This document shows positions 13,636 to 63,963 of a DNA stretch of 64,000 nucleotides, piece after piece (within the stretch, counting starts at the first letter, position 1; every line of letters begins with the position of its first letter). This DNA is from Aggregicoccus sp. 17bor-14 (lineage in GTDB: Bacteria; Myxococcota; Myxococcia; Myxococcales; Myxococcaceae): contig NZ_VJZZ01000007.1 in assembly GCF_009659535.1 (NCBI RefSeq), forward strand, positions 124,001 to 188,000, written 5' to 3'. The notes beneath the pieces are model-generated. The model did not search any database, was not told where the DNA came from, and worked only from the letters and a program-made list of their open reading frames with translations. The position numbers and the translations under genes are program-made.

Positions 13636-14259
13636 CTAGCGCGTGCTGACCGCCCCGGACCTCCGCGAGGACCGGGAGGCGCCGCTGCCGCGCAGCCCCG
13701 GAGACGCCGAGGCCTCGCTCCAGCTGATGCGGTAGGTGCAGGCGTGCCCGTCGTGCTCGGTGGCCTCGATGTGGACCTGGCTCGCCCCGGCGACCTCCAG
13801 GCCCGCCTCGATGATGCCGGCGGTGAAGCCCGGGTAGGCGCCCACCTCGTTCATCCACAGCTCGAAGGAGCGGGGGCCGCGCTCCACGAGCCGGCTCTCG
13901 GTGTAGTTGTTGCCCGAGCGGAAGTTCTGCGTGGCGCGCGCGAGTGCGCGGCGGGGCCCCAGCACGCGCAGGAGCGAGAGCACCGCGCGCCCCAGCATGG
14001 TGTCGCGGTAGCCCGCGATGTGGGCCCGGCCCAGCTGCCGGCAGCCCTCGTCCACGCTGAGCTCGGGGAAGAGCTCCTCCGCGGCGATGCGCAGGAAGGC
14101 CATCCAGGCGTTGATGGGGTAGGCCGGCCGCAGCTTCTGGTCCAGGTCCAGGCCGGCCTGGCGCAGGCGCGCCTTGCAGCGGGCGTCCATGCGCCCCTGG
14201 AGCCCCCGCAGGAAGAGGGCCTCGAGGGTCTGCTCAAACACCAGGAGCTCGTCGGCCAT
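13636..14259 (-). CDS. DUF2378 / TIGR02265 family protein
   Basis: A 207-residue soluble protein of the myxobacterial DUF2378 family, which occurs in many copies per genome in Myxococcales and has no established function. Family features visible are EQTLEALFLRGLQG, a central YRDTMLGRAVLSLLRVLGPRRALARATQNFRSGNNYTE, and FELWMNEVGAYPGFTAGIIEAGLEVAGA. The start ATG 14259 fits the family. It lies 54 bases downstream of the exbD genes on the same strand and could be the last gene of that operon. The C-terminal 25 residues are Ser/Arg-rich and probably disordered. Confidence 0.85.
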   Translation of the reverse strand: MADELLVFEQTLEALFLRGLQGRMDARCKARLRQAGLDLDQKLRPAYPINAWMAFLRIAAEELFPELSVDEGCRQLGRAHIAGYRDTMLGRAVLSLLRVLGPRRALARATQNFRSGNNYTESRLVERGPRSFELWMNEVGAYPGFTAGIIEAGLEVAGASQVHIEATEHDGHACTYRISWSEASASPGLRGSGASRSSRRSGAVSTR

Positions 14260-14313: not shown

Positions 14314-14814
14314 CTACGGGCTGCCCGGAGTGGGCGGGGCCGGCGGCGGCGGCGCGTTCGGGTCGGCGCCCGGCGCGGGAGCGGTCGGCTCCTCGGTGGC
14401 CATGCCCAGCGTGACCTTGGGGTCCGCCTGGCGCGTCATGTCCAGCGCCGCGATGAGCTTGCCGTAGTTGGCCTTGTCGTCGGCGAGGAAGAAGACGACC
14501 TTGTCCTCAAGCTTCGTCTTCGCCGCGAGCACGCGGCGCATCCGCTCGAGGTACTGGTCCGCCGGGATGGTCTCCGCGTTGAGCTTGTAGTTGCCCTGCG
14601 CGTCGATCTCGACCACCAGCTGGCCCTGCGGCACCTCGGACTGGTCCTGCACGTCCTCGGTCTCGGGCACGCGCACGTCGATGTCCTTCTCGAGCAGCGG
14701 CGTCACCACCATGAAGATGATGAGGAGCACGAGCACCACGTCCACGAGCGGCGTGACGTTGATGTCCGAGTTGGGCCGGCCCTGGATGGCCGCCATGCTT
14801 CTGCGCTTGTGCAT
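14314..14814 (-). CDS. exbD: ExbD/TolR-family biopolymer transport protein (second copy)
   Basis: Inner-membrane proton-channel subunit that works with ExbB to energise TonB. The 166 residues contain the family signature SDINVTPLVDVVLVLLIIFMVVTPLL, with the essential membrane aspartate in LVDVVLV near residue 25, and then a periplasmic domain ending in a Pro/Ala-rich tail. The start is ATG 14814, directly after the stop of the preceding exbD with GGAGA ten bases upstream; a second ATG seven codons in is possible. The two ExbD paralogues differ in the periplasmic part, so they may form a heteromer or serve different partners. Confidence 0.9.
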   Translation of the reverse strand: MHKRRSMAAIQGRPNSDINVTPLVDVVLVLLIIFMVVTPLLEKDIDVRVPETEDVQDQSEVPQGQLVVEIDAQGNYKLNAETIPADQYLERMRRVLAAKTKLEDKVVFFLADDKANYGKLIAALDMTRQADPKVTLGMATEEPTAPAPGADPNAPPPPAPPTPGSP

Positions 14815-14816
14815 GG

Positions 14817-15236
14817 TTATTTCTTCTCCTGCACGGCGAGCTTGATGCTCTTGAACTGGGCCTTGCGCGCGCTCTCCATCACCTTGCGCACGTCGCCCAC
14901 CTGCAGGGTGGAGTCACCCTTCAGGAGCAGCTGCTCGGTCGGATCGGTGGCGATCTTCACGCGCAGGGCCTCCTGCAGCCGGCTCGCGTCCGGCATCAGG
15001 TCGTCCTCCACGTAGATCTCCTTCTGCGCGGTGATGGAGAGCACGACGGGGTCGGCATCCTTGTGCTTCTCCTCGCCCTTCTCCTTCTCCGCCTTCGGCA
15101 GCTCCACGGACTTGCCGCGCTGGAGCATCGGCGTCACGACCATGAAGATGATGAGGAGCACGAGCACCACGTCCACCAGCGGCGTGACGTTGATCTCGCT
15201 TTTGACGCCCCCCTTACCGCCTGCTGACATTGCCAT
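14817..15236 (-). CDS. exbD: ExbD/TolR-family biopolymer transport protein (first copy)
   Basis: A 139-residue ExbD with SEINVTPLVDVVLVLLIIFMVVTPML, one membrane segment bearing the proton-carrying Asp, and a periplasmic domain of about 100 residues containing a Lys/Glu-rich linker (KAEKEKGEEKHKDAD). It forms the ion-conducting unit with the ExbB encoded 116 bases upstream. The start is ATG 15236, with an AGGAAG-type ribosome site. It is followed after two bases by the second exbD, a tight pair. A strong hairpin sits upstream in the exbB-exbD gap. Confidence 0.92.
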   Translation of the reverse strand: MAMSAGGKGGVKSEINVTPLVDVVLVLLIIFMVVTPMLQRGKSVELPKAEKEKGEEKHKDADPVVLSITAQKEIYVEDDLMPDASRLQEALRVKIATDPTEQLLLKGDSTLQVGDVRKVMESARKAQFKSIKLAVQEKK

Positions 15237-15274
15237 TGTTGCACCTGCTTCCTGAAAAAGGCCCGCCCGACCGC

Positions 15275-15305
15275 AGGGGCCCTCGCGTGCTGCTCGAGGG
15301 CCCCT
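15275..15305 (-). terminator. Perfect 11-bp hairpin between exbB and exbD (attenuator or partial terminator)
   Basis: Arms CGAGGGCCCCT (15295-15305) and AGGGGCCCTCG (15275-15285) enclose a nine-base loop. In the direction of transcription a run of five T's follows about 14 bases beyond the stem, so this is not a textbook terminator. It may reduce readthrough from exbB into exbD or protect the exbB mRNA end. Confidence 0.5.
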
Positions 15306-15352
15306 CTACGCGCGGCGGAAACGGGCCTTGGGGGGTGGGACCGAGCCGGAGA

Positions 15353-16012
15353 TTAGTGAGAAGCGCCGGCCTGGCGGGCCACCACGTCCAGGAACTCGTT
15401 GGAGGACTCGCTGATGTCCACCGCGCGCGCGTCCACCCAGCCCTGGAGGAAGTTGTACGCCATCACGGCGGGGATCGCCACGAGCAGACCGAACGCGGTG
15501 GTCACGAGCGCCTCGGCGATACCGGCCGAGATGGTGCCCAGACCGCCCGAGCCCGCGGCCGCCATGAGCTGGAACGCGTTCACGATGCCCATCGTGGTGC
15601 CGAGCAGACCCACGAACGGCGCCGTGGAGCCCACGGTGGCGAGCAGGCCGAGGCCGCGCTTGAGGCTCTGCACCTCGCGCTGCGCCTGGCGCTCGAGCGC
15701 GCGCGCCACGCTCTCCACCTGCGCCTCGCCGCGGGTGCCCTTGTAGGCGGTGAGGCCGGCGTTGATCACGCGGCCCAGGTGGCCCACGTCCTTGCCCAGG
15801 TTGGTGTTGGCGGCCGTGTTCAGGTCGCCCTTGGAGAGGATGGCGCCCATCTTGGCGGCGAAGGTGCGGCTGTCCCGGCGGGTCTTGCGGAAGACCACCA
15901 TGCGCTCGGCCATCACGATGAGGGACGACAGCGACATGACCGCCATGACACAGACGACCATCCGCGCGAAGAGGCCCATGTGGGCCCACAGATCAGAGAG
16001 AGTGAATTGCAT
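15353..16012 (-). CDS. exbB: ExbB/TolQ/MotA-family proton channel protein
   Basis: A 219-residue inner-membrane protein that forms the pentameric proton channel energising TonB. Three hydrophobic segments are visible: MGLFARMVVCVMAVMSLSSLIV near the start, GLGLLATVGSTAPFVGLLGTTMGIVNAF, and ISAGIAEALVTTAFGLLVAIPAVMAYNFL. The last two include the family consensus GLLGTVxGIxxAF and the Thr residues lining the channel. A cytoplasmic stretch rich in Arg and Gln (ALERQAQREVQSLKRG) separates them. The start is ATG 16012. It lies between tonB and the two exbD genes, each gap of about 116 bases holding a strong hairpin. Confidence 0.93.
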   Translation of the reverse strand: MQFTLSDLWAHMGLFARMVVCVMAVMSLSSLIVMAERMVVFRKTRRDSRTFAAKMGAILSKGDLNTAANTNLGKDVGHLGRVINAGLTAYKGTRGEAQVESVARALERQAQREVQSLKRGLGLLATVGSTAPFVGLLGTTMGIVNAFQLMAAAGSGGLGTISAGIAEALVTTAFGLLVAIPAVMAYNFLQGWVDARAVDISESSNEFLDVVARQAGASH

Positions 16013-16096
16013 GGTTGGGAGAGCGCTCCTCCTCGAGCGCGGGTGAGAGCTTCTGGGGCGGCTGCTGAAGACGGAAGACGACGGGCAGGGGAGAGC

Positions 16097-16118
16097 GGGG
16101 CCCCGTCACCGGGGCCCC
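16097..16118 (-). terminator. Perfect 9-bp hairpin between tonB and exbB
   Basis: GGGGCCCCG (16097-16105) and CGGGGCCCC (16110-16118) pair perfectly around a four-base loop, twelve bases past the tonB stop. No T-tract follows, so it may act as a Rho-blocking mRNA-end stabiliser or attenuator rather than a full terminator. Confidence 0.45.
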
Positions 16119-16129
16119 GGGAGACGGCG

Positions 16130-16864
16130 TTAGCGGGGCAGCTTCAGCTGGATGGTGAACGTGTAGTCCACCGCCGTGGGCTTGCCCTGGTAGAGGACCG
16201 GCGTGTAGCGGGTGCTGTAGAGCGAGTCGAGCACGGCCGCCTCCATGTGGGGCAGCGGCTTGATGATGCGGCACTTCTCCAGCTTGCCCTCGACGGTGAT
16301 GATGCACTTCACGATCATCACGCCCTCGACGCGGGCAACCAGGGCCTCCTGGGTGTACTGGATGTTGCGTCCCGAGATCTTCGTCGGGCGGGTCATGCCC
16401 TGGCCGAAGGGCAGCACGTCCGTGCCGGTTCCGCCCAGCTGGCCGCCGAGCACACCACCCACCACGCCACCGACGACGCCGCCGACCACGCCGCCCTCGA
16501 CACCGCCCTCCACGCCCCCCTCGACCTCCTCCTCCTGGGAGGACTCCTCCTCCTGGGGCTCGGTCTCGGGCGGCTTCTCGGTGGGGATCTCCTTCGGCTT
16601 GACGATGGTGTCCGGCTTCTTCGTCGGCTTCTTCTTGGTAGTGGAGGAGTGGGACGCCGGCGGGGGCGGCGGAGGCGGAGGCGGCGGAGGAGCCATTGCC
16701 TGCTTGAAGGTCACCTCCACGTCGCCCTCTTCCGCTTCCGGAGTGCGGGTGGAGAGCCAGAGCGCGAGGGCCACGAGGCCCACGTGGAGCAGGACCGATA
16801 GAACTGCTCCGGTGCCGAACCGAGACTTCGGTCCAACACCGCGGCCGAGGACAGAGTCGAACAT
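16130..16864 (-). CDS. tonB: TonB-family energy transducer with Gly-Gly repeat linker
   Basis: A 244-residue TonB: short cytoplasmic N-terminus, one membrane anchor (VLSVLLHVGLVALALWL), a periplasmic linker and a C-terminal TonB domain (QYTQEALVARVEGVMIVKCIITVEGKLEKCRI ... STRYTPVLYQGKPTAVDYTFTIQLKL). The linker has a run of twelve prolines, a Lys/Thr-rich and then Glu-rich part, and about nine tandem four-residue units of the form V-x-G-G (residues 112-148). The domain's YTPVLYQGKPT block is normal. It should transmit ExbBD energy to the divergent Oar-like receptor. The start is ATG 16864 after AAGGAGTGACGCCTC. Confidence 0.92.
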   Translation of the reverse strand: MFDSVLGRGVGPKSRFGTGAVLSVLLHVGLVALALWLSTRTPEAEEGDVEVTFKQAMAPPPPPPPPPPPASHSSTTKKKPTKKPDTIVKPKEIPTEKPPETEPQEEESSQEEEVEGGVEGGVEGGVVGGVVGGVVGGVLGGQLGGTGTDVLPFGQGMTRPTKISGRNIQYTQEALVARVEGVMIVKCIITVEGKLEKCRIIKPLPHMEAAVLDSLYSTRYTPVLYQGKPTAVDYTFTIQLKLPR

Positions 16865-16928
16865 GAGGCGTCACTCCTTGGGACCACAGAGACCGACCAC
16901 GCCCATCCAGGTTCAAAAAAGGCGCGCT

Positions 16929-16956
16929 ACCATACAGAAACGAGGGTCGGGTTCAA
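16929..16956 (-). promoter_or_regulatory. Sigma-70-type promoter for tonB-exbB-exbD-exbD
   Basis: On the minus strand TTGAAC (16956-16951) and TATGGT (16934-16929) are separated by 16 bases, with the tonB ATG about 65 bases downstream. Both hexamers are close to consensus in a very GC-rich background. Confidence 0.6.
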
Positions 16957-17026
16957 GCATACTGATCGCTCGCCTGATCCGCGGCACGCGCCAATGCCCC
17001 AAGGGTCACCAAAAAGCAACGGTCTA

Positions 17027-17054
17027 TTGACAAGGATGCCCTGTCCGCTATTTT
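17027..17054 (+). promoter_or_regulatory. Sigma-70-type promoter for the Oar-like receptor gene
   Basis: A perfect TTGACA (17027-17032) and TATTTT (17049-17054) with a 16-base spacer. It is the best sigma-70 match in the window and agrees with the high expression expected of a major outer-membrane receptor. Confidence 0.72.
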
Positions 17055-17165
17055 GCGCGCCCTGTGTAGTGGCGTCTTCAGGATCAGGAGACCGCCACTT
17101 CAGCTAGTCAGCAGTCGCTGTCCCGGTAGCACGCTGTAGCCGTTCACCTTGGAGGGGTTTTCGGT

Positions 17166-20100
17166 ATGCAATTGACTCGTGTACTCCGGGCAACCGGAGC
17201 GTTCCTGGTCGCGGGCCTGCTGTTCGGCACCGCGGCTCATGCCCAGAGCGGCGTCATCACCGGTACGGTGAGCGACGCTTCAACCAAGCAGCCCGCGGCC
17301 GACGTGGTGGTGACTGCGACCTCGCCCAACCTTCAGGGTGAGCAGGTCGTTGTGACTGACGCGCAGGGCCAGTACCGTATTCCCCAGCTGCCGACTGGTA
17401 ACTACAGCCTGCGGTTCGAGAAGGAGTCCTTCCAGCCGTACAGCCGCTCCGGCATCCAGCTGCGCGTCGACCGCACCATCCGCGTGAACGTGGAGCTGCT
17501 GCCGACGGGCCTGCAGGAGACGGTGGTGGTGCAGGGTACCGCGCCGACCATCGACGTGGGCTCCACCTCCACGGGCGTCAACGTGGGCGCGGACTTCGTG
17601 CGCAACATCGCGGTGGTGCGCCCCACGGGCAAGGGCGGCGCGGCGCGCTCGTTCGAGTCCCTGGCGGACATCGCCCCGGGCGCGAACGCCGACCAGTACG
17701 GCGTGTCCATCAGCGGCACCACGTCCCCCGAGAACTCCTTCGTCATCGACGGTCTGTCCGTCAATGACCCCGGCTTCGGCGTGCTCGGCACCCCGCTGTC
17801 CGTGGAGTTCATCCAGGACGTGAACGTGATCACGGGCGGCTACATGCCCGAGTACGGCCGCTCCACCGGTGGCGTGCTCAACGCGGTGACCAAGTCGGGC
17901 TCCAACGAGTTCCACGGCTCGGTGTTCGCGAACTTCACCCCCGGCAGCCTCGAGGGCACGGCGACCCCGGTCGTCTCCCAGGCGAGCGCCTTCTCCAACA
18001 CCTCCACCCTGCACAACCTGGGTGACTTCGGTGCGGAGCTCGGCGGTCCCATCCTCAAGGACAAGCTGTGGTTCTACGCGGGCGTGGCCCCCTCGTTCAC
18101 GCGGTTCAACGAGGAGCGCAACGTCAACCACCGCATCCCCTGCACGGACGCGAACGGCACGAACAACTGCTTCAACGGCCTGCTCCGCATCCCGGGCTCC
18201 TCCGGCACCCTCACGGCGCGCAGCCTCTTCGCCTCTGAGCGCGTCCCGGGCACCACCATCAACCGCTTCGCGGACCAGAAGACCCTGCAGTACATCGGCA
18301 AGCTGACCTACCTGATCAACCAGGATCACAACATCAGCCTGTCCGTGTACGGCTCGCCCTCGAAGTCGGGCGGCAGCAGCAGCTTCCCGTTCGACAACCA
18401 GGACGGCACGGCGACCGTGGGCGTGAACGGCGTGTTCGGCGCGCTGTCCACGATCAACAAGGCGAACAGCCTCGACGTGGCCCTCAAGACCGCGTCCTCG
18501 TTCATGGACAAGAAGTTCCTCCTGGACGTGACGGCCGGCTGGCACCACCAGGATGCGGACATCCTCCCGGTGGACGGCACCTCCGTGGGTGACGGCCAGG
18601 GTCTGTCCGCCACGCCGCTCGTGCAGTTCCGCGGCTCGGGCGCTGGCGCGTACCGCGTCACCGACTTCGAGTACGCCAACAACGCGGACGTGGTCGCGGC
18701 CTGCACCGGCCCCGGCGGCAGCAACCTCTGCCCCGTGACCTCGTACGCGGTGGGCGGCCCCGGCTTCATCACCGAGGACAAGCTCGACCGCTACCAGGCG
18801 AAGGGCGTGGGCACCTACCTCGCCACCCTCGCGGGCCGTCACGTGTTCAAGGCCGGCGTGGACTTCGAGTACCTGAACTACGACCGCAACAAGGCGTACT
18901 CCGGTACCACCTGGCTGCGCGAGCAGATCCGCTCGGGCGCGGCGCCTGGCGCCTACTTCGAGGAGATCCGCAACTACGGCTACCTGACTGGTCCGAACCA
19001 GTTCACCCGTCAGGCGTCCGTGCCGGCGACCACCACCAGCACCACCATCGGTGGCTTCCTGCAGGACAGCTGGAGCGTGCTCGACCTCTTCACCATCAAC
19101 GCCGGCGTTCGCTACGACCAGCAGAAGATGTACGGCGATGACGACATCCTCGCGCTCAACCTGGGCAACCAGTGGAGCCCGCGCGTCGGCGTCCTGTACG
19201 ACTTCACCCAGCAGGGCCGCTCCAAGATCTACGCGAACTACGCGCGCTTCTACGAGCAGGTTCCCCTCGACCTGGCCGACCGTCAGTTCCCCGGTGAGCG
19301 CCAGGCGTACATGCGCCACAACCGCGTGGGCGGCGCTGGCTGCAACATGACCGCCGCGAACGGCGTGGTGGACATCTCCGCCGCGACCGGCAGCTGCCTC
19401 GACATCGGTCCGGGCAGCCTCCGCCCGATCAGCGACGACAGCGACCCGAACCAGTTCCTCTCGCCCACCGGCGGTGTCCGCAGCCCTGTGGACCCCGACC
19501 TGAAGCCCCAGAGCTCGGACGAGTTCGTGGTCGGCGCCGAGTACGAGGTGATCAGCAACGGCCGTTTCGGTGCGAGCTACACCCGCCGCTACATGAACCA
19601 GGTCATCGAGGACATGAGCCGCGATGAGGCGAACACCTACTTCATCGGCAACCCGGGTACGGGCGTGGCCTCGGACTTCCCCAAGGCGACGCGCGACTAC
19701 GACGCGGTGACGGTCTTCTTCGACAAGACCTTCGCCGACCTGTGGCTCGCCCAGGTCAGCTACACCTGGAGCAAGCTCGAGGGTAACTACGCCGGTCTGT
19801 TCCGTCCCGAGACGGGCCAGCTGGACCCGAACATCAACTCCGACTTCGACCTCATCTCGCTGCTCGCGAACCGCACCGGCCGTCTGCCCGGTGACCGTAC
19901 GCACAGCATCAAGGTGTTCGCGGCGAAGGAGTTCGTCCTCACCGACGCGTTCAGCTTCAACCTCGGCGCCACCTACCGTGGCCGCACGGGCACGCCCATC
20001 AGCTACCTGGGCGCGCACCCGGTCTACGGCGCCCAGGAGGCCTTCCTCGCTGAGCGCGGCATCGCGGGTCGCACCCCGTGGCGCAACGACATCGATGGTC

Positions 20101-20378
20101 GCCTCGGCCTCAACTACAAGCTGAGCGAGAACAACCTCATCACCGTCGGCGTGGACGTGTTCAACCTGTTCAACTTCCAGACGGCGACGTCGGTTGACCA
20201 GGCCTACACGGCGCTCCCCGTCACGCCCTGCACGGGCAACCCGCAGACCGAGGACGCGGTTCACCAGTGCTTCCTCGACCAGGGCTACACCGACAACGAG
20301 CTGAACCCGAACTTCCGCAACGCCACGGCCTACCAGGCGCCTCGCTCCGTCCGCTTCGGGGCGAAGGTGACCTTCTAA
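17166..20378 (+). CDS. oar: Oar-like TonB-dependent receptor with N-terminal carboxypeptidase-regulatory domain
   Basis: A 1070-residue outer-membrane protein. Residues 1-27 are a signal peptide (cleavage near AHA-QS). Residues 28-110 form a carboxypeptidase-regulatory-like beta-sandwich (GVITGTVSDASTKQPAADVV ... GNYSLRFEKESF). ETVVVQG at 118-124 resembles a TonB box. The plug follows (PENSFVIDGLSVNDPGFG, PEYGRSTGGVLNAVTKSGSNEFHG), then a large barrel ending in the aromatic residue Phe (KVTF). This matches Oar of Myxococcus xanthus, required for development and linked to TonB-dependent secretion of the protease PopC. A leader promoter and an ExbBD-TonB operon adjoin it. Codon use is less extreme in GC than its neighbours, as for a highly expressed gene. 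Residues 78-146 match the DUF4139 protein at 61.7 kb. Confidence 0.9.
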   Translation: MQLTRVLRATGAFLVAGLLFGTAAHAQSGVITGTVSDASTKQPAADVVVTATSPNLQGEQVVVTDAQGQYRIPQLPTGNYSLRFEKESFQPYSRSGIQLRVDRTIRVNVELLPTGLQETVVVQGTAPTIDVGSTSTGVNVGADFVRNIAVVRPTGKGGAARSFESLADIAPGANADQYGVSISGTTSPENSFVIDGLSVNDPGFGVLGTPLSVEFIQDVNVITGGYMPEYGRSTGGVLNAVTKSGSNEFHGSVFANFTPGSLEGTATPVVSQASAFSNTSTLHNLGDFGAELGGPILKDKLWFYAGVAPSFTRFNEERNVNHRIPCTDANGTNNCFNGLLRIPGSSGTLTARSLFASERVPGTTINRFADQKTLQYIGKLTYLINQDHNISLSVYGSPSKSGGSSSFPFDNQDGTATVGVNGVFGALSTINKANSLDVALKTASSFMDKKFLLDVTAGWHHQDADILPVDGTSVGDGQGLSATPLVQFRGSGAGAYRVTDFEYANNADVVAACTGPGGSNLCPVTSYAVGGPGFITEDKLDRYQAKGVGTYLATLAGRHVFKAGVDFEYLNYDRNKAYSGTTWLREQIRSGAAPGAYFEEIRNYGYLTGPNQFTRQASVPATTTSTTIGGFLQDSWSVLDLFTINAGVRYDQQKMYGDDDILALNLGNQWSPRVGVLYDFTQQGRSKIYANYARFYEQVPLDLADRQFPGERQAYMRHNRVGGAGCNMTAANGVVDISAATGSCLDIGPGSLRPISDDSDPNQFLSPTGGVRSPVDPDLKPQSSDEFVVGAEYEVISNGRFGASYTRRYMNQVIEDMSRDEANTYFIGNPGTGVASDFPKATRDYDAVTVFFDKTFADLWLAQVSYTWSKLEGNYAGLFRPETGQLDPNINSDFDLISLLANRTGRLPGDRTHSIKVFAAKEFVLTDAFSFNLGATYRGRTGTPISYLGAHPVYGAQEAFLAERGIAGRTPWRNDIDGRLGLNYKLSENNLITVGVDVFNLFNFQTATSVDQAYTALPVTPCTGNPQTEDAVHQCFLDQGYTDNELNPNFRNATAYQAPRSVRFGAKVTF

Positions 20379-20420
20379 GTCTTGGTTGGAACTTCACAGG
20401 ACATCGAGGAAAGACCACAG

Positions 20421-21152
20421 ATGAAGACCCGTCTTATGAAGTCCCTCCTCGCGGTGGGCGCCCTCTCCCTGCTCGGTGGTTGTGACACTGAGCAGGCGGC
20501 GGTGACCTGCCGTGCGGCGAGTGCGAACATTCCCTTCGCGGTGAAGTACACCCCGGTGGGTACCCCGGCTGCCGGCTGCGACGTCAGCCCTGGCGAGCTG
20601 ATGCAGCTGTCCACGTACGCTCCGCCCACTGGCGAGCGTCCCTCCATCGCGATTGGTCCGGGCAACGCCCTGACCTTCGACGCCGATGGCAACGTGACCA
20701 GCACGGGCAACAAGTTCGCGGTCGGCGCCTTCGCCACCGACGCGGCGGACGCCAACAACACCTGCTCCGTCCCGCAGCTCACGACGGTGTCCCAGACGGA
20801 CGCGACGACTGGCACGACGACCTACACGTTCAGCAACGTGCAGACCTACGTCAGCGCCGCGAACCAGGGCACGCAGCTCAAGGGCGACGTGACCATCGCG
20901 AACGGCGCCTGCAGCGTGAGCTACAAGATGCTCGGCATCTGGCCGGCGGTGGACTGCACCCTGGTGGATGCGAAGGGCAAGCCGGTCAAGGATGCCCAGG
21001 GCCACCTGCAGCCGGACGACACCGTCTGCCAGGCGACCGACACGGGTATCAACCCGGACGTGGTCAAGGCGGGTGGCGTCACCTGCTCCCCCACGCTGCT
21101 CACCTGCGTGATCAAGGGTGATGACTTCGTGAAGACCGGCGGCGACCAGTAA
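20421..21152 (+). CDS. Putative outer-membrane lipoprotein partner of the receptor
   Basis: A 243-residue lipoprotein: MKTRLMKSLLAVGALSLLGGC gives a lipobox with Cys21, followed by a Thr/Ala/Asp-rich mature domain with several cysteines (Cys30, CDVSP, CSVPQ, CSVSYK, CTLVD, CQATD, CSPTLLTC), which could form disulphides in the periplasm or at the cell surface. No family is recognised. It lies 42 bases downstream of the receptor gene in the same transcript and is followed by a strong terminator, so a joint function, for example as a surface lipoprotein accessory like those of SusCD-type systems, is a reasonable inference. ATG 20421 follows GAGGAAAGACCACAG. Confidence 0.7.
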   Translation: MKTRLMKSLLAVGALSLLGGCDTEQAAVTCRAASANIPFAVKYTPVGTPAAGCDVSPGELMQLSTYAPPTGERPSIAIGPGNALTFDADGNVTSTGNKFAVGAFATDAADANNTCSVPQLTTVSQTDATTGTTTYTFSNVQTYVSAANQGTQLKGDVTIANGACSVSYKMLGIWPAVDCTLVDAKGKPVKDAQGHLQPDDTVCQATDTGINPDVVKAGGVTCSPTLLTCVIKGDDFVKTGGDQ

Positions 21153-21174
21153 GCGTCGCAGCCTGTCGGTAGCG

Positions 21175-21225
21175 CCTCGGCCCCGGATGCCCCTCCCTCG
21201 CGGGAGTGGCCCTCCGGGGCCGAGG
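21175..21225 (+). terminator. Strong nested-hairpin terminator after the receptor operon
   Basis: A perfect 13-base inverted repeat, CCTCGGCCCCGGA (21175-21187) and TCCGGGGCCGAGG (21213-21225), encloses a second small hairpin (CTCCC and GGGAG around TCGC), and TGTTTAT follows. It ends the receptor-lipoprotein transcript. Its 3' arm also contains the GAGG that would serve as ribosome site for the next gene. Confidence 0.78.
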
Positions 21226-21230
21226 TGTTT

Positions 21231-22856
21231 ATGCAGTCCAGCAACCCACAGCAGGGCCCCGGCAGCCGGGGGCCAGGAGCGCATTTGGAAGGCCGCTACG
21301 CACTCGTCGACGCAGTCCGCACCCGCCTGGCGGACGAGCAGGGGACCCTGCGCAAGGAGGCCCCCTACCGGGTGGCCCTCTGCTACCCGAGCCCCTACCA
21401 CGTCGGCATGAGCTCGCTCGGCTACCAGACCATCTACCGCGAGGTGCACGCGCATCCGGGGGCGACGGCGGAGCGCGCCTTCCTCCCGGACGACGTGGAG
21501 GCCTACCGGCGCACGCGCACGGCGCTGTTCACCTACGAGTCCCAGGCGCCGGTCTCCGGCTTCGACATGCTCGCGTTCTCGGTGGCCTACGAGCTGGAGC
21601 TCAGCGGCCTCTTCGAGATGCTGGAGCTCTCGGGCATCCCCGTGCTGCGCGAGGCGCGCGGGGAGGGCCATCCGCTCATCGTCGCGGGCGGGCCGCTCAC
21701 CTTCTCCAACCCCGACCCGCTCGAGCCCTTCGTGGACGTGCTCGTGCAGGGCGAGGCCGACGAGCTCGTGCACACGCTCCTGGAGGCGGCGCGCGCGCAC
21801 CCGCCCCGCGAGCAGCTGCTCTCGCAGCTCGCGCGCACGCCGGGCTTCCTCGTGCCGGGGCGCGGCGGGGTGCGCTACCACGTGGCCAAGGCCACGGACG
21901 CGAACCTCCCGGCGCGCTCGCAGATCATCACGCCGCACACCGAGCTGCGCTCGATGTTCCTCATCGAGCCGGAGCGCGGTTGCTCGCGCGGCTGCCACTA
22001 CTGCGTGATGCGCCGCACCACCAACGGCGGCATGCGCACGGTGCCCCCGGAGCGGGTGCTCTCGCTCGTGCCCGAGGCCGCCCGGCGCGTGGGGCTGGTG
22101 GGCGCCGCGGTGACGGACCACCCGCGCATCGTGCCCCTGCTGCGCACGCTCGTGGACTCCGGCCGTGAGGTGGGGGTCTCCTCGCTGCGCGCCGACCGGC
22201 TCACCCAGGAGCTCGTGAGCACCCTGCACGCGGGCGGGGCGCAGAGCCTCACCGTGGCCTCGGACGGCGCGAGCCAGCGCATGCGCGACTTCATCGACCG
22301 AAAGCACTCCGAGGAGCAGATCGTGCGCGCGGCCACCTTCGCGCGCACCGCCGGGATGAAGCAGCTGAAGGTGTACAACATGGTGGGCCTGCCGCTGGAG
22401 GAGGACGCGGACATCGACGAGCTCATCCGCTTCACCACCGAGCTCAGCCGCATCCTGCCCCTCTCGCTCGGGGTGGCGCCCTTCGTGGCCAAGCGCAACA
22501 CGCCGCTGGACGGCGCGCCCTTCGCGGGCATCCGCGAGGTGGAGAACCGGCTCGATCGGCTGCGGCGCGGCCTGCGCGGGCGCGCCGAGGTGCGGCCCAC
22601 CTCGGCCCGCTGGGCCTGGGTGGAGTACATGCTCGCGCAGTGCGGCCCCGAGGCGGGGCTCGCCGCGATGGATGCGTGGCGCGCCGGCGGCTCCTTTGCC
22701 GCCTACAAGCGCGCCTTCCAGGAGCGCGGCTGCACGCCGTACCTCGCCCGCCGGGTGGAGGACGGGCGGCGCAAGGCCACCGTCTGGCCCACCGTGCCGA
22801 ACGTGGCGCCCCCGGGCGCCGCCAGCGCTGCCCCTGGCGCCGCTCCCGCCGCCTGA
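21231..22856 (+). CDS. B12-binding-type radical SAM protein
   Basis: A 541-residue radical SAM enzyme with the iron-sulfur motif CSRGCHYC (C-x3-C-x2-C) beginning near residue 251. The N-terminal part (YRVALCYPSPYHVGMSSLGYQTIYREVH ... FDMLAFSVAYELEL) resembles the B12-binding-like region of the TIGR03960-type or YgiQ-type families. Downstream strands include RADRLTQELV, SLTVASDGASQRMRDFIDRKHSEEQI and LKVYNMVGLPLEEDADI, all usual for this fold. The C-terminal tail is Ala/Pro-rich. The substrate is unknown. ATG 21231 is preferred over GTG 21225; both are very close to the preceding terminator, and no better internal start fits the family. Confidence 0.85.
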   Translation: MQSSNPQQGPGSRGPGAHLEGRYALVDAVRTRLADEQGTLRKEAPYRVALCYPSPYHVGMSSLGYQTIYREVHAHPGATAERAFLPDDVEAYRRTRTALFTYESQAPVSGFDMLAFSVAYELELSGLFEMLELSGIPVLREARGEGHPLIVAGGPLTFSNPDPLEPFVDVLVQGEADELVHTLLEAARAHPPREQLLSQLARTPGFLVPGRGGVRYHVAKATDANLPARSQIITPHTELRSMFLIEPERGCSRGCHYCVMRRTTNGGMRTVPPERVLSLVPEAARRVGLVGAAVTDHPRIVPLLRTLVDSGREVGVSSLRADRLTQELVSTLHAGGAQSLTVASDGASQRMRDFIDRKHSEEQIVRAATFARTAGMKQLKVYNMVGLPLEEDADIDELIRFTTELSRILPLSLGVAPFVAKRNTPLDGAPFAGIREVENRLDRLRRGLRGRAEVRPTSARWAWVEYMLAQCGPEAGLAAMDAWRAGGSFAAYKRAFQERGCTPYLARRVEDGRRKATVWPTVPNVAPPGAASAAPGAAPAA

Positions 22857-61713: not shown

Positions 61714-63963
61714 ATGCAGTTCATGCTCCTGCTCCTGCTTCCAGCCCTCGGCACGCTCACGCTCGGTGCCATCGATGCTCCCGTCACCGACGTCACCGTC
61801 TTCAGCGACCGCGCCCGGGTGGTGCGCACCGCCCGGGTGAGTCTCTCCGGCACGGAGCGCGTGGAGCTCCCGCTGCTGCGCGAGGGCGTGGACCCGGAGA
61901 GCATCCGGGTGGAGGCGGACGGCGCCGAGGTGCTGCGGGTGGACATCCGCCCGGTGAGCCGTGCCGCCTTCGCCGCAGACCCCGCGCGCAAGGTGCTGGC
62001 GGAGCTGGAGCGGCTGGACGATGCCCTGACGCGTGCCCGCGCAGAGAAGGACGCGTACGAGGCGCAGCTGAAGGCGGTGGCGGGGCTGCAGCCGCAGGCG
62101 CCCGAGAGCCCGGTGGACGCGCCGCCGCCGCGCCTCAACGCCACGGGCTGGTCGGCCGCGGTCAGCTTCGTGGTGGAGACCACCGAGCGGCTGCAGGCGC
62201 GCGTGCGCGAGGTGGAAGAGCACATCGCGCAGCTCGAGCAGGCCCGCGAGCGGCAGGCGGAGGAGGCCGCACGGCTGGGCAATCCGCAGCGCCAGGGCGG
62301 GCTCGCGGTGGTGCCCGTGCTGCGCGGCCACGGCGCCGCCACCTTGCGCCTGAGCTACGCCACGCCTCGCGCGCGCTGGTTCCCCGCCTACGAGCTGCGG
62401 CTGCTGCCCGAGGCGAACCGCGTGGAGGTGGCCTTCTCGGGCCTGGTGAGCCAGGAGAGCGGAGAGGACTGGACGAACGCCCAGCTCACCCTGAGCACCG
62501 CGCTGCCCTCGGGCGCCACCGCCGTGCCGCGGCTCTCCACCTGGAAGGTGGGGCAGAAGGAGCGCTTCATCCCCACGCCCGAGACGCGCGTGGAGCAGGT
62601 GCGCGCGCCCCCACCCGAGCTGCCCCCGCTCCGCGCACAGGTGGACGCGGACCTCCTGCTGCGCCGGCGCCTGCTGGCCCTGGTGGGCAAGGAGCCCGAG
62701 GACCTCTCCATCCCCGAGCCGGCACCGCCAGAGGAGCCCCACGACGCCTCCGGCCAGCGTGCCCCGCCTCCGTCCGCGCCACCGCCGCGGCCCACGCAGG
62801 GCATCGCCCCGGGGCAGGGACAGAGCTTCATCGTGGGCGTCGTGAGTGATGCCTCGACGAAGCAGCCGGCGGCCGACGTGGTCGTCACTGCCACCAGTCC
62901 CAACATCAGCGGCGAGCAGGTGGTGGTCACCGATGCCGACGGCCGCTACCGCATCCCGCAGCTGCCCCCGGGCAACTACAGCCTGCGCTTCGAGAAGGAG
63001 TCCTTCCAGCCGTACAGCCGCTCCGGCGTCCAGCTGCGCGCGGACCGCACCATCCGCGTGAACGTGGAGCTGCTGCCGGCGGGCCTGCAGGAGACGTTGG
63101 TGGTGCAGGGCACCGCGCCGAGCATCGACGTGGGCTCCACCTCCACGGGCGTCAACGTGGGCGCGGACTTCGTGCGCGGCGTCACGGTGACGCGCCCTTC
63201 GGGCAGTGGCGGCGCGGCGCGCTCGTTCGAGGGGCTCACCGGCTCCTCCTCGCAGAGCGAGGCGGTGCTCACCTCGGTGGGGCTCGCTCCGCCCGCGGGC
63301 TGGGTGCGGCCGCAGCTGGATGCGCGCCTGCCGGCGGAGAGCGCAGGGGGCCGCGACCTGGACTTCCGTGCGGCGCGCCCGGAGACGGTGCGCACCGGCG
63401 GCAGCCTGCGCCAGGTGCCGCTGTTCAGCGAGAGCTGGCCGGTGAAGGTGGAGCGCGAGTTGTACCCGGCGCTCGCGCAGGACGCCTTCCTCGTCGCCGA
63501 GCTGAAGAGCCCCGCGCGCCAGGTGCTACCCGGCGGCGACGCGCAGCTCTACGTGGGCGCGGACCCGGCCGGCAGCGCACGGCTGCAGGTGGTGGCGCCC
63601 GGTGAGCCCTTCACGCTGCCGCTCGGGCTCGACCGCGCGGTGCACCCGGCGCGCAACGTGCAGCAGGTCACGGCGGAGCGGGGCTTCATCGGCAAGGACG
63701 AGGTGACGGAGTACCTCACCACCATCGAAGTGGCGAACCCGTACCCCTTCGCGCTGCCCGTGCGCGTCCACGACCAGTGGCCCCTGAGCCGCAGCGAGGA
63801 CGTGCAGGTGCGCCTGCTCAGCACCGAGCCCTATGCCGAGCAGGACGAGGTGAAGGGTGCGCTCACCTGGCGCCTCACCGTGCCCCCTTCCGGCAAGACC
63901 ACCGTCTCCTTCCGCTACTCCGTGCGCCGCCCCAAGGGCTGGCGCCTGCACCAGCAACAGTGA
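61714..63963 (+). CDS. DUF4140/DUF4139 protein with an inserted Oar-type regulatory domain and TonB-box-like segment
   Basis: A 749-residue exported protein of the mucoidy-inhibitor (MuiA)/DUF4139 group. Signal peptide 1-18; DUF4140-like strand set (VTDVTVFSDRARVVRTARVSL); coiled coil (residues 155-195); first DUF4139 part (RGHGAATLRLSYATPRARWFPAYELRLLP ... SGEDWTNAQLTLSTA). Residues about 375-509 then match the N-terminus of the receptor at 17166 (SDASTKQPAADVVVTATSPN, GNYSLRFEKESFQPYSRSG, ETLVVQG at 460-466). The second DUF4139 part follows (SWPVKVERELYPALAQDAFLVAELK ... VPPSGKTTVSFRYSVR). Both DUF4139 halves look intact, so the insert is a domain insertion. An ATG at 61723 has the better ribosome site (AGGA). 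RBS GAGGAC for the next gene follows. Confidence 0.85.
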   Translation: MQFMLLLLLPALGTLTLGAIDAPVTDVTVFSDRARVVRTARVSLSGTERVELPLLREGVDPESIRVEADGAEVLRVDIRPVSRAAFAADPARKVLAELERLDDALTRARAEKDAYEAQLKAVAGLQPQAPESPVDAPPPRLNATGWSAAVSFVVETTERLQARVREVEEHIAQLEQARERQAEEAARLGNPQRQGGLAVVPVLRGHGAATLRLSYATPRARWFPAYELRLLPEANRVEVAFSGLVSQESGEDWTNAQLTLSTALPSGATAVPRLSTWKVGQKERFIPTPETRVEQVRAPPPELPPLRAQVDADLLLRRRLLALVGKEPEDLSIPEPAPPEEPHDASGQRAPPPSAPPPRPTQGIAPGQGQSFIVGVVSDASTKQPAADVVVTATSPNISGEQVVVTDADGRYRIPQLPPGNYSLRFEKESFQPYSRSGVQLRADRTIRVNVELLPAGLQETLVVQGTAPSIDVGSTSTGVNVGADFVRGVTVTRPSGSGGAARSFEGLTGSSSQSEAVLTSVGLAPPAGWVRPQLDARLPAESAGGRDLDFRAARPETVRTGGSLRQVPLFSESWPVKVERELYPALAQDAFLVAELKSPARQVLPGGDAQLYVGADPAGSARLQVVAPGEPFTLPLGLDRAVHPARNVQQVTAERGFIGKDEVTEYLTTIEVANPYPFALPVRVHDQWPLSRSEDVQVRLLSTEPYAEQDEVKGALTWRLTVPPSGKTTVSFRYSVRRPKGWRLHQQQ
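62830..63240 (+). repeat. Copy of the Oar-like receptor N-terminal domain
   Basis: Bases encoding residues about 375-509 of the DUF4139 protein. The core, 62971-63177, matches 17397-17603 of the receptor gene at roughly 96% by eye, including perfect runs of 39 and 54 bases. The same domain upstream of this core is diverged at many third positions. Confidence 0.8.

Follow-up and report, generated by a model that had tools for sequence, protein, structure and literature searches.

In the SusC-SusD systems of the Bacteroidota, and likewise in BtuB-BtuG and RagA-RagB, the gene for a TonB-dependent barrel is followed by that for an outer-membrane lipoprotein; in SusCD the barrel carries a carboxypeptidase-regulatory N-terminal extension, and several paralogous pairs are found per genome. 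The literature presents Oar as a TonB-dependent transporter for protein export: in Myxococcus xanthus it is required for secretion of PopC, its N-terminus binds the C-terminal domain of TonB1 in a bacterial two-hybrid assay, and E. coli carrying Oar, PopC and a Ton system secretes PopC, with about 0.2% as much PopC in the supernatant as in the lysate (PMC6434023). No M. xanthus lipoprotein is reported for that reconstitution in the main text of the paper, from which MXAN_1451 is absent and in which the word lipoprotein is confined to reference titles (PMC6434023). Here we analyse the oar locus in a 64,000-nucleotide stretch of DNA (hereafter the window; G000:C7:124001-188000), taken from a 6.9 Mb genome (G000) that is 99.95% complete.

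Organisation of the oar locus

The plus strand holds oar (17166..20378), which encodes a 1070 aa TonB-dependent transporter, and the gene of an MlpA-type lipoprotein (20421..21152; 243 aa) with its lipobox cysteine at residue 21 and eight more conserved cysteines. Divergent from oar, on the minus strand and across a 301 nt tonB-oar gap, lies a tonB-exbB-exbD-exbD set (14314-16864), made up of a tonB-like gene (16130..16864; 244 aa, PF03544, E 1e-9), a gene for an ExbB-like proton channel (15353..16012; 219 aa, PF01618, E 1.1e-33; its top NCBIfam match is tolQ, under the cut-off of that model), an exbD1-like gene (14817..15236; 139 aa, PF02472, E 1.2e-26) and, in the conserved order, an exbD2-like gene of the ExbD/TolR type (14314..14814; 166 aa, PF02472, E 2.5e-20). 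A first-pass annotation of this DNA had described a complete receptor-TonB-ExbB-ExbD-ExbD locus with a Cys-rich lipoprotein, the Oar-like receptor being divergent from its own ton genes; all of these genes are present, in an order and between flanks that match the Myxococcus oar/ton-oar locus, the receptor, tonB and lipoprotein genes lying inside the range it gave (16130-21152) whereas exbB and both exbD genes lie outside it. Beside exbD2 lies a DUF2378/TIGR02265 gene (13636..14259, minus strand; Pfam and NCBIfam); as this gene was not found in several relatives, we do not put it forward as part of the system, and neither do we put forward the radical-SAM gene on the other side (21225..22856, plus strand; Pfam), which is a syntenic flank.

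Good promoters had been proposed for both strands, and of these the plus-strand one was recovered: a scan for the sigma-70 consensus found a single promoter-like site (1 found, 0.3 expected), TTGACA-N16-TATTTT at 17027..17054 on the plus strand 5' of oar, and none on the minus strand, in a scan for this promoter type only. Behind the lipoprotein gene stands a terminator-like hairpin (21171..21229, plus strand; z -5.65, with a weak T tail) which extends over 21225, where the radical-SAM frame could start at the earliest, and because this strong hairpin comes after the lipoprotein gene, oar and the lipoprotein gene look like one two-gene unit. The start candidates of the lipoprotein are an ATG at 20421 and a longer TTG at 20382, of which the ATG appears likelier because a GAGGAAAG stretch lies immediately upstream of it.

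The Oar protein shows a CarboxypepD_reg N-terminal extension, a plug and a barrel in this order, with PF13620, PF07715 and PF00593 all above cut-off (the plug match, PF07715, by 24.4 against 23.9). It also matches PF13715 (35.7 bits, cut-off 32.2), the type of carboxypeptidase-regulatory N-terminal domain that we take to mark SusC. A putative TonB box lies within LQETVVVQG (by eye).

The Oar N-terminal module also occurs outside full-length transporters. A 749 aa DUF4140/DUF4139 (MuiA-like) protein in the same window (61714-63963, plus strand) contains an inserted copy, 66% identical to Oar over residues 28-226, with a carboxypeptidase-regulatory domain, a putative TonB box (LQETLVVQG, by eye) and the start of a plug; a TonB-box module in a barrel-less protein would be unusual. 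In two other genomes (G068 and G101; L072 and L078) the module is fused to a von Willebrand-type, YfbK-like protein (by eye), and a short open frame of G000 (L081, C3:445576-445989; 154 aa) contains the module alone. Near the second oar-mlpA pair of G000 lies a 1056 aa frame with ten carboxypeptidase-regulatory stretches (L034:16345-19515, minus strand).

Conservation and descent of the ton-linked locus

In 20 loci around selected mlpA matches, an Oar-like gene was directly upstream of mlpA in all 20, and in six of these an exbD-exbD-exbB-tonB set is divergent from oar, with comM and radical-SAM flanks and, in five of the six, the DUF2378 gene. Among all loci fetched, divergent ton-linked oar-mlpA loci number 20 in 14 genera, the window included, with radical SAM as the next gene in 19 and a contig end in the twentieth; the window itself has the divergent tonB-exbB-exbD-exbD set beside oar-mlpA that defines them. 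In one locus outside the family (L150) the ton genes come after the lipoprotein instead, all on one strand. The M. xanthus locus, oar (MXAN1450)-mlpA (MXAN1451)-tonB1 exbB1 exbD1 exbD2, has the same gene order and comM/radical-SAM flanks as the window. As a Myxococcus-type comparison we used genome G103, whose Oar has 1061 aa (ATG start) and lies 234 nt from tonB; this gap fits the 249 bp published for M. xanthus from the oar start to the end of the tonB1 deletion (PMC6434023), and we infer that G103 is M. xanthus or close to it.

Identity between the window and the six ton-linked loci differs from gene to gene: ExbB reaches 84-85%, radical SAM 79-83%, TonB 64-69% and the frame that comes next downstream 52-55%, against 52-54% for the receptor and 26-30% for the lipoprotein. 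The closest relatives of the window receptor are two paralogues of its own genome. Replacement of the gene in the oar slot by a paralogue was considered and set aside, shared promoter hexamers and synteny favouring descent in place with later duplication; gene conversion may have taken place. The hexamers and spacing ahead of oar are the same in all 10 ton-linked loci of a first comparison set, window included, while the exact TTGACA-N16-TATTTT is found in none of 10 more distant ton-linked loci (the nearest being TTGACA-N16-TATGTT, L149) and is absent ahead of both other full-length oar copies of G000. Most likely the oar locus is common to the family of the window by descent.

The MlpA lipoprotein family

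The lipoprotein had been presented as private to this locus and undescribed, and neither holds. It has the nine cysteines and the position directly behind oar by which we define the MlpA family, and its M. xanthus counterpart is already listed as MXAN1451, 'putative lipoprotein MlpA', in the outer-membrane fraction with 4 peptides (PMC3222651, Table 4), where its neighbour by number, Oar (MXAN1450), is represented by 40 (PMC3222651, Table 3); the family is thus named and located to the outer membrane in M. xanthus. In searches of open-licence papers the Myxococcus lipoprotein MlpA was met in PMC3222651 alone, a lead under mlpB proving to be an unrelated abbreviation. Nor is the gene unique: an MlpA match (1e-4) is found in 95 of 195 genomes of the phylum, comprising 92 of 96 in the family of the window and 3 of the 99 outside it. 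The locus is therefore a known one with a widely conserved, named lipoprotein.

The lipobox cysteine and the eight others form nine columns that are all invariant in 61 of 61 strong members (>150 bits; 61 of 89 distinct places). Ten members gave nothing usable in Pfam (one chance-level match in one member, and no SusD-family match for any), nor did the family in NCBIfam or PHROGs, and the MlpA profile had no match among PDB sequences of solved structures; residues 22-243 of the window protein, folded from the single sequence, gave a pLDDT of 39.4. A plasmid search gave no match, and a single Arthrobacter match from a scan of genome contigs was dropped, as the family profile finds nothing there. 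In the window lipoprotein (over 20481-20501) and in its Myxococcus-type counterpart (L039), position +7 of the mature protein is alanine, as it is in 9 of the 61 strong members. M. xanthus FibA needs a +7 alanine for targeting to the extracellular matrix, which some M. xanthus lipoproteins reach by an unknown route (PMC3222651).

Oar and MlpA are near-obligate neighbours in the genome

The 134 mlpA-like locus entries (131 with an Oar C-terminus upstream), many of them duplicates of one place, merge into 89 distinct places, which are the best-scoring and selected matches and hence a subset of all matches. At 86 of these 89 places an Oar C-terminus lies directly upstream on the same strand, and the three misses (L139, L141 and L145) are all within 60 nt of a contig end; the oar-mlpA gap has a median of 34 nt, is at most 100 nt in 85 of 86 cases and is 296 nt at its largest. 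The four family genomes without MlpA are also without an Oar match at 1e-40. By these counts the pairing of lipoprotein and oar is stronger than the first-pass annotation had proposed.

The reverse count covered seven genomes and 21 full-length Oar genes, of which one is read as two pieces within a single open frame; MlpA follows 19 of them (partial and more distant relatives were left out, among them a split 48-50% Oar copy in G042, L080, with no lipoprotein behind it). The two oar loci that lack MlpA are L061 and L075, and we count them against a partnership; one of these two MlpA-less genes is 87% identical to the window receptor and lies in the same genome. An 87% identical copy of G000 (L084:8227-11502, minus strand, on C10) has no MlpA match behind it and lacks the promoter hexamers. 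Elsewhere, L085 (G083:C2) is an Oar without MlpA, followed by an open frame that includes a lipobox-like stretch and gives no match to MlpA.

Trees built from 26 receptors and from 24 lipoproteins resolve the same five clades, with weak support for the order between clades, and the nearest neighbour falls in the same clade for both proteins in 24 of 24 pairs (the clades being named from those trees). The distances of Oar and MlpA correlate at 0.874, a value that none of 2000 free and none of 2000 within-clade permutations reached; as the within-clade permutations still average 0.741, part of this correlation is shared ancestry.

Near-obligate neighbourhood and congruent trees would also be expected to accompany a lipoprotein that is itself the cargo or client of Oar, moved by it to the cell surface, and the alanine on which FibA depends for its matrix targeting (PMC3222651) is present in both the window protein and L039. 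We nevertheless regard this explanation as improbable, as a cargo need not accompany every paralogue one to one and the +7 alanine is not a feature of the family. The two proteins might instead be neighbours in one pathway, for example in an envelope or development function, and form no direct complex, which would agree with the E. coli reconstitution lacking a reported lipoprotein (PMC6434023). This too appears unlikely, because the pair is found again as a unit at sites away from the ton genes, where no common neighbours were evident by eye, and because the two proteins diverge clade by clade together and are absent together. Inspection by eye of the genes around eight pair or receptor loci revealed no shared theme, no common neighbours of the ton-less pairs, and no recognisable polysaccharide-use genes in the frame lists. 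A direct partnership of Oar and MlpA is the reading we carry forward.

PopC is probably not the cargo in this organism

The first-pass annotation had raised the idea of a dedicated unit for export, comparable to Oar-PopC in M. xanthus, in which the lipoprotein would be a subunit. The locus is the same as that of M. xanthus oar, where PopC secretion needs Oar, and since only about 0.2% of lysate PopC is secreted by E. coli there is room left for a helper (PMC6434023). To follow PopC we took as proxy a subtilisin-family gene of G103 (L193), without a signal peptide (by eye) and with a C-terminal protease domain, encoding 472 aa and 50.5 kDa (the published mass of PopC is 50.8 kDa; PMC6434023) and followed by a 17.1 kDa frame. 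At 1e-60, 64 of the 96 family genomes have a putative orthologue. It is missing from G000, where the best match at a loose cut-off has an E-value of 3.1e-12 and 30% identity; of the 92 family genomes with MlpA, 28 are without it. PopC export is thus unlikely here and the cargo in this organism is probably not PopC; Oar may export some other cargo. Moreover, E. coli releases PopC with Oar and no reported M. xanthus lipoprotein (PMC6434023), a result which we count against partnership and which tells against an essential role of the lipoprotein in PopC export, while remaining compatible with a part in M. xanthus. An export unit of the M. xanthus kind is consequently a poor candidate for the window locus.

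In a larger receptor tree the ton-linked receptors of PopC genomes, together with the unlinked paralogue L085, form one clade (100/100). The window receptor is not a member of this clade; it groups (92/95, midpoint root) with several of the ton-linked receptors from genomes that lack PopC, those of L157, L160 and L161 being placed elsewhere. Recruitment of Oar for PopC was probably a later event.

A different lipoprotein in the oar slot of other families

Among 35 genomes without a strong MlpA match, 15 have Oar at 1e-40, one of them (G137) with a weak MlpA match. Loci were inspected in 11 of these 15 (G005, G014, G019 and G026 were left out), and in 11 of 11 a lipoprotein-like gene lies within about 250 nt behind oar; these loci are mutual relatives rather than independent trials, and the lipobox of L184 and L188 was assigned by eye. 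The L188 lipoprotein is MlpA-like. In L180-L184 and L189 it is of a 'CDPY' type, with exbB nearby and the lipoprotein-like gene behind oar as in the window, yet homology of this type to MlpA was detected no further than the signal peptide (hhalign probability 27.7 over 32 columns).

A proposed transporter-lipoprotein cassette comparable to SusCD

We favour as the probable explanation a two-gene transporter-lipoprotein cassette, in which Oar has MlpA as its dedicated outer-membrane partner and TonB-ExbB-ExbD1-ExbD2 as its motor, on a plan like that of SusCD with an unrelated lipoprotein. TonB would pull on the Oar plug through the TonB box, and MlpA would take a place at or on the barrel like that of SusD on SusC, serving as a lid that binds cargo or as a docking subunit; where oar-mlpA copies lack ton genes, they would probably borrow a motor encoded elsewhere. 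Import seems likelier than export as the direction of transport. A lid-like shape of MlpA is unsupported, because there is no usable Pfam, NCBIfam or PDB match and the fold has so low a pLDDT.

More tentatively, Oar-type transporters of the order may function as obligate two-gene machines of transporter and lipoprotein, a counterpart of SusCD that is independent of it. On this view the slot would have been kept filled while its lipoprotein family changed from one bacterial family to another; PopC export would not have been the ancestral job, and M. xanthus Oar would have been taken up for PopC once the pair already existed. In open-licence papers, outside which most subscription journals lie, we found no description of the near-obligate oar-mlpA pairing, of its spread as two-gene cassettes, of the pair without PopC or of a different lipoprotein in the oar slot of other families. 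Should Oar indeed have an obligate lipoprotein partner, and the pair be more widespread than its only known cargo, the mechanism and original function of Oar would need re-examination, and an independent transporter-lipoprotein design would exist outside the Bacteroidota.

Compared with the described systems, the window shares its locus with M. xanthus and differs in that no PopC orthologue was found in its genome. Its MlpA is unlike SusD in having no SusD-family, Pfam or solved-structure match, and capping of the barrel is proposed by analogy, whereas the pair as a whole is like SusCD in its barrel with a carboxypeptidase-regulatory extension, in the outer-membrane lipoprotein encoded next to it and in the occurrence of paralogous pairs.
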